Source: Psychroserpens mesophilus (GTDB taxonomy: Bacteria > Bacteroidota > Bacteroidia > Flavobacteriales > Flavobacteriaceae). From it: DNA of 64,000 nucleotides. The stretch covers positions 1-64,000 of the forward strand of contig NZ_JXJP01000020.1 of NCBI RefSeq assembly GCF_000826645.1. Reading direction: 5' to 3'. The position numbers were made by a program, and so were the translations under genes. Under the pieces are notes generated by a model that saw nothing but the letters and a program-made list of their open reading frames with translations, searched no databases and was not told the DNA's origin. This document shows positions 59,648 through 64,000 of the stretch, piece after piece (within the stretch, counting starts at the first letter, position 1; each line of letters begins with the position of its first letter).

Positions 59648-60481
59648 ATGAATAAAATTATTGTACCAATTGATTTCTCCAAACATTCTGAATATGCGCT
59701 TGAAACAGCAGCAATTCTGGCAAAGAAAAATAATTCTGAAATTATCGCATTGCACATGTTGGAAATGGCTCATAATGTGCTCACAGATTCTGATGATGAT
59801 CAACAAATGCAAACGGTATTCTTTTTAAAACTTGCCGAGACAAAGTTTCAAGAGTTTTTGGAACGAGATTACTTAAAAGGAATCAATGTTACTCCAGTTG
59901 TAAAGCACTTCAAAGTATTTCGAGAAGTTAATGATGTTGCCGAACAACACCATGCTGATTTAGTGGTTATGGGTTCTCATGGTTCTAGTGGTCTCACCGA
60001 GATTTTTGTTGGATCTAACACCGAAAAAGTTGTAAGACACTCAAATATACCAGTCCTTATTGTCAAAAAAGAGCCAGTTAATCTACAATTCGATACGGTT
60101 GTTTTTGCTTGTGATTTTTCTGAAGAAATGGTTGAGCCATATTTAAAGGCTTGTCAGTTTTTTGACAATTCAAGTTCTACCTTAAAACTGTTATATGTTA
60201 ATTTGCCTGGCGAACGCTTCAAAAGTTCTACAGAAATGGAAGCTACTGTAGCAAAGTTTCTTGAAAAGGCAGATGGAAACTTAGATAAAATTAATGACAT
60301 TCATTACATATCAGATTATACTGTGGAAGAAGGCGTGTTGACCTTTGCTAACATTGTTGGTGGTGATTTAATCGCTATTCCTACTCATGGACGACGAGGT
60401 ATCTCTCATTTTTTTAGTGGAAGTATAGGTGAAGACATTGCTAATCATTCAACTTTGCCAGTGATTACTTTTAAGATTTAA
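59648..60481 (+). CDS. Universal stress protein with two UspA domains
   Basis: A 277-residue protein made of two UspA folds in tandem (about 1-140 and 148-277). The first is complete with KIIVPIDFSKHSEYALETAA and the ATP-binding VMGSHGSSGLTEIFVGSNTEKVV; the second has VVFACDFSEEMV and IPTHGRRGISHFFSGSIGEDIANH. Cytosolic, probably a nucleotide-binding stress factor. It is divergent from sodC and convergent to a CBS gene, close to other CBS and nucleotide-related genes. Confidence 0.92.
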   Translation: MNKIIVPIDFSKHSEYALETAAILAKKNNSEIIALHMLEMAHNVLTDSDDDQQMQTVFFLKLAETKFQEFLERDYLKGINVTPVVKHFKVFREVNDVAEQHHADLVVMGSHGSSGLTEIFVGSNTEKVVRHSNIPVLIVKKEPVNLQFDTVVFACDFSEEMVEPYLKACQFFDNSSSTLKLLYVNLPGERFKSSTEMEATVAKFLEKADGNLDKINDIHYISDYTVEEGVLTFANIVGGDLIAIPTHGRRGISHFFSGSIGEDIANHSTLPVITFKI

Positions 60482-60542: not shown

Positions 60543-60962
60543 CTAAAATTGTTCAATTAAATAATTTATTAAGTCTGTAGATGTAACGATACCTACTAGT
60601 TGACCGTCATCCACAATTGGCAAGGCGTGAAATTCATTTTTAGTTATGATTTCTGCCACATCTTTAATAGTAGTTTCAGAACTTACAGTAACTACATTTT
60701 TCGTCATAACCTGATCAATAGTAAACATGTTATAAACTACAGTATCAACTTCTGTTTCATCTTCGTTTATAGCATCTGCAAAACTTATTCGTAGTAAATC
60801 GGTATAACTTAACATGCCAATAATTACATCTCCAGAAACTACAGGAATGTGTCTTATGTGGTGTTGTTTGAATAATCGTTCAGCAGTTTCTAAATCATCA
60901 GTTCTATTTACTGCAATAATATTCTTTGTCATAATTTGTGACACTGGGATACGCTTTCTCAT
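60543..60962 (-). CDS. CBS-pair regulatory protein
   Basis: A 139-residue protein with two CBS motifs (residues 8-65, VSQIMTKNIIAVNRTDDLETA, and 75-135, IDQVMTKNVVTVSSETTIKDVAEI), a nucleotide-binding module. No catalytic partner is fused to it. A matching CBS pair ends the GCS2-like protein encoded divergently 118 bases away. It may sense adenosine nucleotides; target unknown. Confidence 0.9.
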   Translation of the reverse strand: MRKRIPVSQIMTKNIIAVNRTDDLETAERLFKQHHIRHIPVVSGDVIIGMLSYTDLLRISFADAINEDETEVDTVVYNMFTIDQVMTKNVVTVSSETTIKDVAEIITKNEFHALPIVDDGQLVGIVTSTDLINYLIEQF

Positions 60963-61053
60963 AATGGTTTAGGTTTTGATTTCTTATTAAAGATAGCTAT
61001 ATACCATACTGAAAACTATGATAAATATCATATAACCTACGGAAGTAATAGCT

Positions 61054-61061
61054 TAAATTTG
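61054..61061 (+). promoter_or_regulatory. -7 box (TAAATTTG) of the GCS2-CBS gene
   Basis: Exact TAnnTTTG match 19 bases before the start codon; no clear -33 TTG. Confidence 0.42.
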
Positions 61062-61080
61062 AGGATATTGCATAGATATC

Positions 61081-62943
61081 ATGGGATCACAATCGGTAAA
61101 ACCAATCACTAATAAAACTGAGCGGAAGGCCTTTATAAATCATTTATTAAATGATATCGAGGCTCTGGACATGATGATTAAAGCTGGCGTCTTCGAAAAA
61201 GGTATTCAGCGTATAGGTGCCGAACAGGAACTATGTATTGTTGATCGGTATTTCAGACCTTCATTTAATGCTTTAGAAATATTAGAGAAAATTAATGATT
61301 CTCATTTTACTACAGAATTAGGACTTTTTAATCTGGAAGCGAACTTAGATCCTTTGGAATTAAAAGGAAAATGTTTTTCTCAATTAGAAAGCGATCTCTA
61401 TAACTTAATTGATAAGGCACACAAAGCCGCAGAATCAATAGATTTTAATAAAATCATACTAACGGGAATTCTACCCACATTTAAACGAAAAGATCTAGTA
61501 TTTGAGAACATGACACCTCACCAGCGCTATAAGGTGCTCAACGATGTGATGAGAACTGTTAGAGGTGATGATTTCAGAGTTAAAGTTAGAGGCATTGATG
61601 AACTCATTTTAGATCATGAATCAATTCTTTTTGAAGCTTGCAATACCAGTTTTCAAGTGCATTTGCAAATAGATTTAGATCACATTATCGATCAGTATAA
61701 CTGGTCTCAGGCAATAGCTGGTCCTGTGTTATCTGTAATGACCAATTCACCCATGTTATTGGGTAGAGAATTATGGAGTGAAACACGTATTGCCTTATTT
61801 CAGCAAAGTATAGATTTACGAAATACATCCCAATTACTAAGAGAGCAGAAAGCGCGTGTGAGCTTCGGAAATGATTGGGTAAGAGATTCAATTTTAGAGG
61901 TCTTTACAGATGATGTAGCACGTTATGCACCTTTAGTTACTGCAGATTTATCTGGCAATCCCATTGAAGATCTAAAAAAAGGAATTAAACCAGAATTGAA
62001 AGCCATCGGTTTGCACAACGGCACTTTGTATAAATGGAATAGAGTCTGCTATGGTGTTCATAATAATGTTGCTCATCTGAGAATAGAAAACCGATACATT
62101 CCATCGGGACCAAGCATTAAAGACGAAATTGCTAATGCTATGTTTTGGGTTGGTGTGATGTTAGGTATGCCAGATGATTGTAAATCCATATGGAAGCGTA
62201 TGGCTTTTAAAGACGCCAAAGGAAATTTTATAAAAGCAGCAAGAACAGGAATGGATACTTATTTCAATTGGTTTGGCAGAGGAATTTCAGCAAAAAAACT
62301 GGTAAGACAAATTTTGTTACCTATGGCTCATGACGGACTCATAAAGGCTAATGTTGACCCTGTAGATATTGCATTTTACCTTAATATCATTAAACAACGT
62401 ATCGAGAATAATATTTCTGGAAGCAAGTGGTTGGTGAGAAGCAGCAGAATGCTACAAGAAACCGTTTCCAGAGAAGAAGCAAATATTTTATTAGCCTATC
62501 ACATGCATAAAAACCAAATGGAAGATTTGCCTGTGCATGATTGGGAATTAGCAAAACCTTTAGCAAGGAAAGAAGCCAGTTCCAATGATAAAGTCCATAA
62601 GGTAATGTCTACACAAATTTTTACCGTTGATGAGAATGACTCCATGAGACTCATTAAAAACATCATGCAATGGAAACGAATTCACCATATTCCTGTTATT
62701 AATTACAAGCATAAAATTGTTGGAATTATTTCAGCGAGTGATGTTTCTGATGTTGATAAATTTGATGACTACTCTGCAAGTCAAGTGATGCAGAGCGATA
62801 TAAAAACTGGATATCCAGACATGTGTATCAAAGAAGCGAGTAACTTAATGCTTAAACATCACATTAAATGTTTACCAATAGTCGATCATGACGAATTGGT
62901 TGGGATACTAACCAAAACAGATTTGGAAAAACTTAATCTATAA
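61081..62943 (+). CDS. Glutamate-cysteine-ligase-like (GCS2) enzyme fused to a CBS pair
   Basis: A 620-residue protein. Residues 40-440 belong to the GCS2 family of carboxylate-amine ligases: RIGAEQELCIVD (the G-x-E-x-E nucleotide/metal motif, about 45-55), ELGLFNLEANLDP, FEACNTSFQVHLQID, and NSPMLLGRELWSETRIALFQQSIDLRN. Residues 505-620 are two CBS motifs (VMSTQIFTVDEND, VMQSDIKTGYPDM). A CBS-fused GCS2 is not the form used for glutathione. Together with the AstE-like zinc hydrolase starting 3 bases after it, it may make and recycle an amide-linked amino-acid compound. Substrates are unknown; CBS suggests control by adenylate nucleotides. Confidence 0.9.
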   Translation: MGSQSVKPITNKTERKAFINHLLNDIEALDMMIKAGVFEKGIQRIGAEQELCIVDRYFRPSFNALEILEKINDSHFTTELGLFNLEANLDPLELKGKCFSQLESDLYNLIDKAHKAAESIDFNKIILTGILPTFKRKDLVFENMTPHQRYKVLNDVMRTVRGDDFRVKVRGIDELILDHESILFEACNTSFQVHLQIDLDHIIDQYNWSQAIAGPVLSVMTNSPMLLGRELWSETRIALFQQSIDLRNTSQLLREQKARVSFGNDWVRDSILEVFTDDVARYAPLVTADLSGNPIEDLKKGIKPELKAIGLHNGTLYKWNRVCYGVHNNVAHLRIENRYIPSGPSIKDEIANAMFWVGVMLGMPDDCKSIWKRMAFKDAKGNFIKAARTGMDTYFNWFGRGISAKKLVRQILLPMAHDGLIKANVDPVDIAFYLNIIKQRIENNISGSKWLVRSSRMLQETVSREEANILLAYHMHKNQMEDLPVHDWELAKPLARKEASSNDKVHKVMSTQIFTVDENDSMRLIKNIMQWKRIHHIPVINYKHKIVGIISASDVSDVDKFDDYSASQVMQSDIKTGYPDMCIKEASNLMLKHHIKCLPIVDHDELVGILTKTDLEKLNL

Positions 62944-62946
62944 GAA

Positions 62947-64000
62947 ATGATAAAAGAAGCTGTCAAACCTATGACATATACGGATAAGGATAGAATTTTC
63001 TACAGCCAGAATAATGATGTCCATGCAACCACTTTAATCTGTATTGGAGGGATTCATGGTAATGAACCTGCAGGTGTTTATGGATTGCAAAAAGTTATCA
63101 GTGAAATTATTGTAAATGACATTACATTTAAAGGTAATTTTTATGCGCTGTTTGGCAATATGGATGCTCTAAAAGCTAATGTGAGATACAAAGATTTTGA
63201 TTTGAACAGGCTCTGGACCAAAGAGGAAGTTGAATCATTGTGCAGTGCAGATGATAGTTATGAGTTTGATGAGCAAAAAGAACAATGTGAACTTTACGAA
63301 ACGATTAAAGACATTTGTAATGCTAATAAAGGCGATTTTGTATTCGTAGATTTACATACCACATCATCACCAACTGTACCTTTTATAACCATAAGTGACT
63401 CGTTAAATAACAGAGCACTAGCAGATAAATTTAATATTCCAATTGTATTAGGTATTGAAGAATATCTCGACGGACCATTATTATCATTTATTAACGAATA
63501 TGGCCATGTATCTATTGGTTTTGAAGCTGGACAACACAATGATGAAAAATCAGTACTGTATTGTGAGGCATTTATTTGGATGGTTATGGAAAAAACAGGT
63601 TTGGTATCAAAGCACGATTTTGAATATAAGGCTTTCAACCGAGTTCTGAATATTGAAAAAGGATTTTATGAAATTATTTACAGGCATTCTTTATCTGAAT
63701 CCAATCAGTTTAAGATGAAGCCTGGTTTCAAAAATTTTAAGCCCATTCTGAAACATCAATCACTGGCTTTCGACGGCATTTGCGAAGTTAAAAGTCCGTT
63801 AAACGGATTGATATTTATGCCTTTATACCAAAAGCAAGGTGAAGATGGTTTCTTTGTGGTTAGAAAACTTTCCAGATTCTGGCTTGTGGTATCAGCAGTT
63901 CTAAGGCATTTAAAATTTCATCAACTCTTAAGATTACTTCCAGGAATTAAACGCCATCCAGAAAATGAATATTGCTTAGTTGCAAACCGAAGAATTGCCT
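62947..64000 (+). CDS. AstE/aspartoacylase-like M14 zinc hydrolase, cut by the window end
   Basis: The first 351 residues of a protein that continues past the window. The succinylglutamate desuccinylase/aspartoacylase signature is present: GGIHGNEPAG with zinc ligands His37 and Glu40, KDFDLNRLW, FVDLHTTSS with zinc ligand His137, and GFEAGQH with the catalytic Glu193. The enzyme removes acyl groups from amino acids or peptides. It starts 3 bases after the GCS2-CBS gene, so they are one transcript. Start ATG 62947 is the first in frame and sits by an AAGAA Shine-Dalgarno-like stretch. No stop codon is met to 64000. Confidence 0.87.
   Translation, partial: MIKEAVKPMTYTDKDRIFYSQNNDVHATTLICIGGIHGNEPAGVYGLQKVISEIIVNDITFKGNFYALFGNMDALKANVRYKDFDLNRLWTKEEVESLCSADDSYEFDEQKEQCELYETIKDICNANKGDFVFVDLHTTSSPTVPFITISDSLNNRALADKFNIPIVLGIEEYLDGPLLSFINEYGHVSIGFEAGQHNDEKSVLYCEAFIWMVMEKTGLVSKHDFEYKAFNRVLNIEKGFYEIIYRHSLSESNQFKMKPGFKNFKPILKHQSLAFDGICEVKSPLNGLIFMPLYQKQGEDGFFVVRKLSRFWLVVSAVLRHLKFHQLLRLLPGIKRHPENEYCLVANRRIA

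Follow-up and report, generated by a model that had tools for sequence, protein, structure and literature searches.

A GCS2-type ligase with a CBS pair and its AstE-type hydrolase partner look like part of a low-oxygen regulon in Psychroserpens mesophilus and related Bacteroidota

GCS2-type ligases couple the carboxylate of glutamate to an amine, and AstE-type enzymes cleave N-acyl amino acids. The cyanophycin system is one of nitrogen storage and not a low-oxygen regulon. Cleavage of beta-Asp-Arg by AstE-type enzymes whose genes adjoin cyanophycin synthetase (PMC10206079, in the part of the article available) shows that a division of labour between the maker and the breaker of an amide does exist. 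Here we analysed the first 64,000 nucleotides of contig NZ_JXJP01000020.1 of Psychroserpens mesophilus (hereafter the window), at the end of which a GCS2-type ligase with a C-terminal CBS pair is followed by a zinc hydrolase of the AstE/AspA type. The pairing of the two genes is real and conserved, not obligatory. In Flavobacteriaceae and in family f8, which belongs to the same class, the pair looks, from its predicted operator, like a member of a low-oxygen, energy-stress regulon.

Coordinates and lengths of both genes, as well as the gap of 3 bases between them on the same strand, were as the sequence-only reading of this DNA had given them. The unit and its promoter consist of the following features:

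61017..61032, no strand: palindrome TATGATAAATATCATA, predicted CRP/FNR-type operator, flanked by the ligase gene and the divergent CBS gene
61054..61061, plus strand: TAAATTTG, match to the Bacteroidetes -7 element TAnnTTTG, its centre 33 nucleotides from the operator centre
61081..62943, plus strand: GCS2-type carboxylate-amine ligase with C-terminal CBS pair, 620 residues
61081..62520, plus strand: ligase domain, residues 1-480 (query in the searches), invariant motif residues in 39 of 39 aligned ligases
62590..62928, plus strand: CBS pair, residues 504-616, two Pfam CBS stretches, top Foldseek match AcuB
62947..64000 in the window, to 64110 in the contig, plus strand: AstE/AspA-type zinc amidohydrolase, 387 residues

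One draw of 296 Bacteroidota genomes was searched for both genes, with counts that take no account of relatedness. The ligase was found in 88 genomes, the hydrolase in 49 and both in 47 (Fisher p 1.5e-27, relatedness not corrected). In 42 of these 47 the hydrolase lay directly downstream of the ligase on the same strand; the two genes were unlinked in the other five, all of family f5. Sixteen ligase genomes belonged to family f17, where the FMO protein of green sulfur bacteria was present in 3 of 3 genomes tested. With 478-540 codons, their ligase frames have no room for a CBS pair, and a distant AstE-type gene followed the ligase in 15 of the 16 (domain match checked for one). By these searches, 62 of the 88 ligase genomes thus had a partner. 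On plasmids, ligase homologues occurred in 4 of 72,556 records (three actinobacterial, one haloarchaeal); within 7 kilobases of them no AstE-type hydrolase was annotated in three, and none was seen in the unannotated one. One of these, on a Streptomyces plasmid (L105:6971-8449), is shorter, has no CBS-sized end and lies, by the record's annotation, between xanthine-dehydrogenase-type and nickel-hydrogenase genes.

The two partners were also compared in quick trees, one of them with a long-branch warning; their deep forks carry no conclusion. The ligase tree placed f1, f8, f21 and one copy of the tandem f23 pairs in one clade and f5 with the other f23 copies in a second. Hydrolases fell into a clade of f5 and short f23 proteins, an f1/f8 clade and a clade of long f23 proteins, and those linked to RimK or from f17 stood apart. 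Because three loci (L067-L069) combine the second ligase type with the long hydrolase, partners seem to have been swapped, or lost in different ways, with the pairing itself retained. Two tandem ligase genes preceded one hydrolase in L044 and L047-L051, belonging to different clades where both were in the tree; the upstream copy in L050 has only 487 codons. Such tandem ligases may form a heterodimer or serve two ligation steps.

The assignment of the first protein as a GCS2-type ligase with a C-terminal CBS pair held at the level of its family. No Pfam model scored on the first 480 residues of the window ligase; 32 of the 39 aligned family members matched PF04107 (GCS2) at E ≤ 1 (best 2.2e-10), and the family profile aligned with four YbdK-type GCS2 proteins at an hhalign probability of 96.4 (E 1.3e-9). 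The carboxylate-amine ligase superfamily is described by the motifs GhExE, [HDQ]x[NH] and Ex[RK]x2D, by acidic residues on strands 2 and 3 and by two active-site arginines, with PafA as a member that shows the Q form of the second motif (PMC2588565, in the part of the article available). In the window ligase, G46-A-E48-Q-E50 is the GhExE motif of core strand 1, Q192-V-H194 fits [HDQ]x[NH] of strand 4 and E336-N-R338 corresponds to the first part of Ex[RK]x2D of strand 6, with Pro341 in place of the Asp; G46, E48, E50, Q192, H194, E336 and R338 were invariant in 39 of 39 aligned ligases. So were E86, R321 and R334, the strand placement of which depends on a poor model. One search with the ligase and one with the family profile gave no useful match to a solved structure by sequence.

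By domain search, the CBS pair extends over about residues 500-616. Foldseek with the ligase model returned AcuB with AMP/ADP as first matches, the CBS part topping the 50 PDB matches listed, and both CBS copies contain a G-hydrophobic-hydrophobic-S/T-x-x-D stretch, which we take to be the nucleotide motif. On these two grounds, the pair probably binds adenine nucleotides. The CBS scan covered the window ligase; for its relatives the presence of the pair was deduced from length, and for ten also from the alignment.

The second gene had been read as a zinc hydrolase of the AstE/AspA family, which was borne out by a match to the AstE_AspA_cat domain (E 1.5e-16) and by the invariance of H37, E40, R80, N87, R88, H137 and E193 in all 49 hydrolases compared, window copy included. 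With roles as in aspartoacylase, HxxE and the following His are presumably zinc ligands, N-R substrate residues and the Glu catalytic. The protein stayed below the NCBIfam cut-offs of the named enzymes AstE and aspartoacylase, at 51.7 of 180 bits and 42.3 of 305.65 bits. A predicted model of the hydrolase from L004, about 90% identical to the window copy (predicted local distance difference test, pLDDT, 80.9), had solved AstE as best fold, followed by DoeB and others including AspA, at template-modelling scores of about 0.5.

The palindrome ahead of the ligase matched the window once at ≤1 mismatch, against a chance expectation of 1.20, so that the single site proves nothing. Because this lone site is at chance level, the evidence for an operator is its conservation. 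TATGAY-N4-RTCATA or a near form stood between the CBS gene and the ligase in nine close relatives. We surveyed 71 loci carrying 77 ligase genes, taken from 61 of the 88 ligase genomes and from 10 further contigs. In the 250 bases preceding the ligase, all 19 loci of Flavobacteriaceae (group f1 in these counts; L005 is placed to Flavobacteriales only) and f8 had the core TGAY-N4-RTCA, among them L045 and L046 of f8, which lack the hydrolase. After shuffling of the 19 promoters the core was present in a mean of 0.39 of 19, with a maximum of 3 in 1000 trials. The 19 loci are not independent, since they comprise nine close relatives (L002, L004-L011) and two near relatives (L056, L057). Among other upstream regions, the core was seen in 38 of 655 over all loci and in 27 of 210 in the 19 operator loci; 20 of these 27 precede, by eye, Usp (universal stress protein), SodC-like, CcoI, CoA-transferase or hemN genes.

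A possible promoter accompanies the palindrome. TAnnTTTG is presumably the Bacteroidetes -7 consensus, and an element with 5 or 6 of its 6 positions lay at exactly 33 nucleotides from the operator centre in 11 of the 19 loci (8 were without it). Nine of the 11 are close relatives, and chance would give 0.054 each for a wider window. The spacing fits an activator next to its promoter. For the classical TTGAN-N4-NTCAA form of the box, the 200 bases ahead of 9 ligase genes were scanned and contained no site. Transcription of the genes that lack a box may start at a more distant upstream position.

Elsewhere in the P. mesophilus genome, ATGAY-N4-RTCAT was found 51 times, against 17 times for the reversed control. 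Twenty stretches holding 22 box sites were taken from 50 listed, a choice that favoured A+T-rich spacers and is not an even sample. Twelve of these sites were intergenic: boxes preceded hemA, PPK2, HPF, CBS-protein, sulfide-quinone-reductase-type, thioredoxin and TonB genes, and others stood before tilS-like, transporter-like, ABC-type and helicase-like genes, which have no plain oxygen link. The core was further present 56 nucleotides before a Usp gene, 253 nucleotides before ccoN and at the start of the fnr gene; a nosZ operon of the same genome (L157:3641-9213) has the palindrome ahead of its first gene. In relatives it preceded ccoN in L006, L007 and L010 and hemN in L010. Locus L002 held four sites of the 16-base form at ≤1 mismatch, where 0.39 were expected by chance and 0 of 200 shuffles reached this number. 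The ligase gene thus shares a predicted operator with low-oxygen genes, as expected of an FNR-type regulon, in f1 and f8 only. Since the box also stands before cbb3 oxidase, fnr, nosZ-operon, hemA, HPF, PPK2 and Usp genes, the ligase-hydrolase pair appears to belong to a low-oxygen, energy-stress regulon.

The surroundings of the unit were in part as expected. A separate CBS protein and a Usp gene had been placed next to the pair, and both are there:

60543..60962, minus strand: stand-alone CBS-pair protein, divergent, with the operator region in common with the ligase
59648..60481, plus strand: universal stress protein, adjoining the unit

The promoter of this Usp gene carries a box core of its own in L004-L007 and is without one in the window. 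An operon continuing beyond the window had also been announced. Only the hydrolase gene does so, by its last 110 bases: a convergent gene lies 2 bases past the hydrolase stop, and the operon ends there. The contig DNA after position 64000, where a RimK-like ATP-grasp gene was to be looked for, has no RimK gene adjoining the pair. Beyond the convergent gene follow pyridoxamine-oxidase-type, Usp, cbb3 oxidase, hemN, P-type ATPase and FNR-like regulator genes.

What might this operon do? Given what the two families do, joining of a glutamate carboxylate to an amine by GCS2 ligases and cleavage of N-acyl amino acids by AstE-type enzymes, the simplest reading is that the pair makes and breaks a gamma-glutamyl-type amide. 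We regard the chances as evenly balanced that the operon makes and breaks such an amide in oxygen limitation, with a ligase gated by adenylates. The gamma-carboxylate of glutamate is the most likely group for the ligase to phosphorylate and then join to an amine. The CBS pair of the ligase, probably occupied by adenine nucleotides, would let the energy state set the activity. The hydrolase would cut the same amide and return the building blocks, in which case the amine part should bear a free carboxylate. A CRP/FNR-type regulator of Flavobacteriaceae and f8 would activate the operon along with cbb3 oxidase, haem synthesis, universal stress proteins, the ribosome hibernation factor and PPK2. 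Gene structure, family membership, conservation of the catalytic residues, pairing and a conserved operator that recurs at other low-oxygen genes were established by computation; we infer glutamate as donor, adenylate binding, a substrate common to both enzymes, the regulator and the direction in which it acts. A more specific picture, tentative and on the doubtful side, is that of a hitherto undescribed low-oxygen metabolite of marine Bacteroidota, a gamma-glutamyl-type amide built under adenylate gating while energy lasts and released by the co-transcribed AstE-type enzyme, within a hypoxic dormancy regulon that includes ribosome hibernation and PPK2. The predicted regulation ties a ligase family without an assigned role to a physiological condition, and oxygen limitation is where its product should be sought; as the family is present in 88 of 296 sampled Bacteroidota genomes, the answer would reach many lineages.

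Several observations weigh against this reading. The operator core preceded none of the 58 other ligase genes examined, so low-oxygen control would be a lineage trait. Ten of the 22 sampled box sites lie inside genes. Of five exact 16-base sites, two are inside genes and one is at the start of an unrelated gene, making three of five (L158-L160) without a low-oxygen link. The FNR-like protein near the unit scored 100.8 bits, below the cut-off of 228 of the Fnr model. On the side of the chemistry, the Asp of the strand-6 motif Ex[RK]x2D is replaced by Pro341, and the model of the ligase core is poor (mean pLDDT 64.7, with residues 223-291 and 301-342 below 50). As to the pairing, these searches found no AstE-type partner in 26 of the 88 ligase genomes, so that the hydrolase is a frequent companion and not an obligatory one; adjacency in 42 of 88 upholds the proposed pairing as conserved, not as a constant co-occurrence. 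A search of the 25 partnerless genomes outside f17 for AstE_AspA_cat gave some match (E ≤ 0.001) in 14; by position the match lay next to RimK in 5 of them, and most of the remaining matches were weak or short. Conversely, 2 of the 49 hydrolase genomes (G053, G273) have no ligase, their hydrolase adjoining MATCAP/QEGLA-type and GshB-like genes, on the opposite strand in G273; the Pfam and NCBIfam check of the neighbour names covered G053. This arrangement of MATCAP/QEGLA-type, GshB-like and hydrolase genes without a GCS2 ligase is seen in loci L108 (3879-7786) and L109 (2490-6358), the hydrolase of L109 being on the opposite strand.

These missing partners on both sides would be expected if ligase and hydrolase had different substrates and were mere neighbours under one promoter. 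We consider this improbable, as the two genes occur together across two clades of ligases and several of hydrolases, as unlinked genes in the five f5 genomes that have the ligase and, in green sulfur bacteria, with a distant hydrolase as partner. Modification of a protein or peptide by glutamate tagging and removal, instead of turnover of a free metabolite, appears very unlikely. RimK is a ligase of the protein- or peptide-modifying kind, and an AstE-type gene follows RimK in the P. mesophilus genome. PafA, too, is a protein-modifying ligase of the same superfamily (PMC2588565, in the part available). Against such tagging, neighbourhood maps of open reading frames of at least 70 residues showed no conspicuous small partner gene next to the unit. 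Moreover, the AstE/AspA enzymes of known substrate act, to our knowledge, on small molecules.

The ligase might instead be a gamma-glutamylcysteine synthetase that stops at gamma-glutamylcysteine or supplies a GshB-like ATP-grasp enzyme for glutathione, with the hydrolase recycling the peptide. It does belong to the GCS2 family, and a further point against the amide reading is that a GshB-like gene (PF02955, E < 1e-45) was present in 6 of 6 f1 ligase genomes and in 2 of 24 other f1 genomes (Fisher p 4.7e-5, relatedness not corrected). Outside f1, however, a strong GshB-like match was seen in only 2 of 82 ligase genomes (2 of 35 in f23, 0 of 5 in f5). In the 7 loci where a GshB-like gene was tagged, the 250 bases ahead of it held no box core; two further loci had the gene untagged. 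In P. mesophilus itself the GshB-like ATP-grasp gene is grouped with rhodanese-like (by eye) and QEGLA-motif genes (L145:3845-8024); some further f1 genomes with the ligase have GshB-like and QEGLA genes in close proximity as well. BshC of bacillithiol synthesis occurred in 290 of 296 genomes, P. mesophilus included, which makes gamma-glutamylcysteine less likely as the main thiol and, together with the 80 of 82 non-f1 ligase genomes without a strong GshB-like match, also argues against glutathione. Bacillithiol-type thiols in this group fit PMC6282198, as far as its available part goes. We therefore hold this explanation to be unlikely and retain the gamma-glutamyl-type amide as our preferred reading.

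Among the matches listed, literature searches showed by title nothing on a GCS2-CBS fusion or on this ligase-hydrolase pair. Compared with GCS2/YbdK-type ligases (PF04107), the ligase shares the family profile and the GhExE, QxH and ExR motifs, but adds the C-terminal CBS pair, exceeds the four YbdK-type proteins compared by about 70-110 residues in its ligase part, carries Pro for the strand-6 Asp and, in the window copy, matches no Pfam ligase model. Its partner resembles AstE, aspartoacylase and DoeB (PF24827) in fold and zinc-site residues, yet falls far under the NCBIfam cut-offs and is paired with a GCS2-type ligase. The RimB-RimK-AstE operon likewise has an amide ligase beside an AstE-type hydrolase; there, however, the ligase is an ATP-grasp enzyme and not GCS2, and the 13 RimK-linked hydrolases compared form a clade of their own. 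P. mesophilus has such a RimB-like, RimK and AstE-type operon on contig C1 (L126:6447-8716), a separate amide-ligase system, and on C12 (L003:7603-10966) one operon of a longer RimK-like ATP-grasp gene, a YbdK-type GCS2 gene and a gene that is N-formylglutamate-amidohydrolase-like by eye, without an NCBIfam match. Co-occurrence with the ATP-grasp family PF02955 (125 of 296 genomes) mixes RimK, GshB-like and longer proteins and was discarded as evidence for RimK. In the Myxococcus NmpR regulon, oxygen-linked control of Usp and a CBS protein is comparable, whereas the main text of that paper, in the part available, is without the words glutamate-cysteine and ligase (PMC11841059). Cyanophycin synthetase with its AstE-type dipeptide hydrolase (CphZ, 8eip) has a ligase of another fold, but it shares with the unit described here the combination of an amide ligase and a hydrolase of its isopeptide unit.

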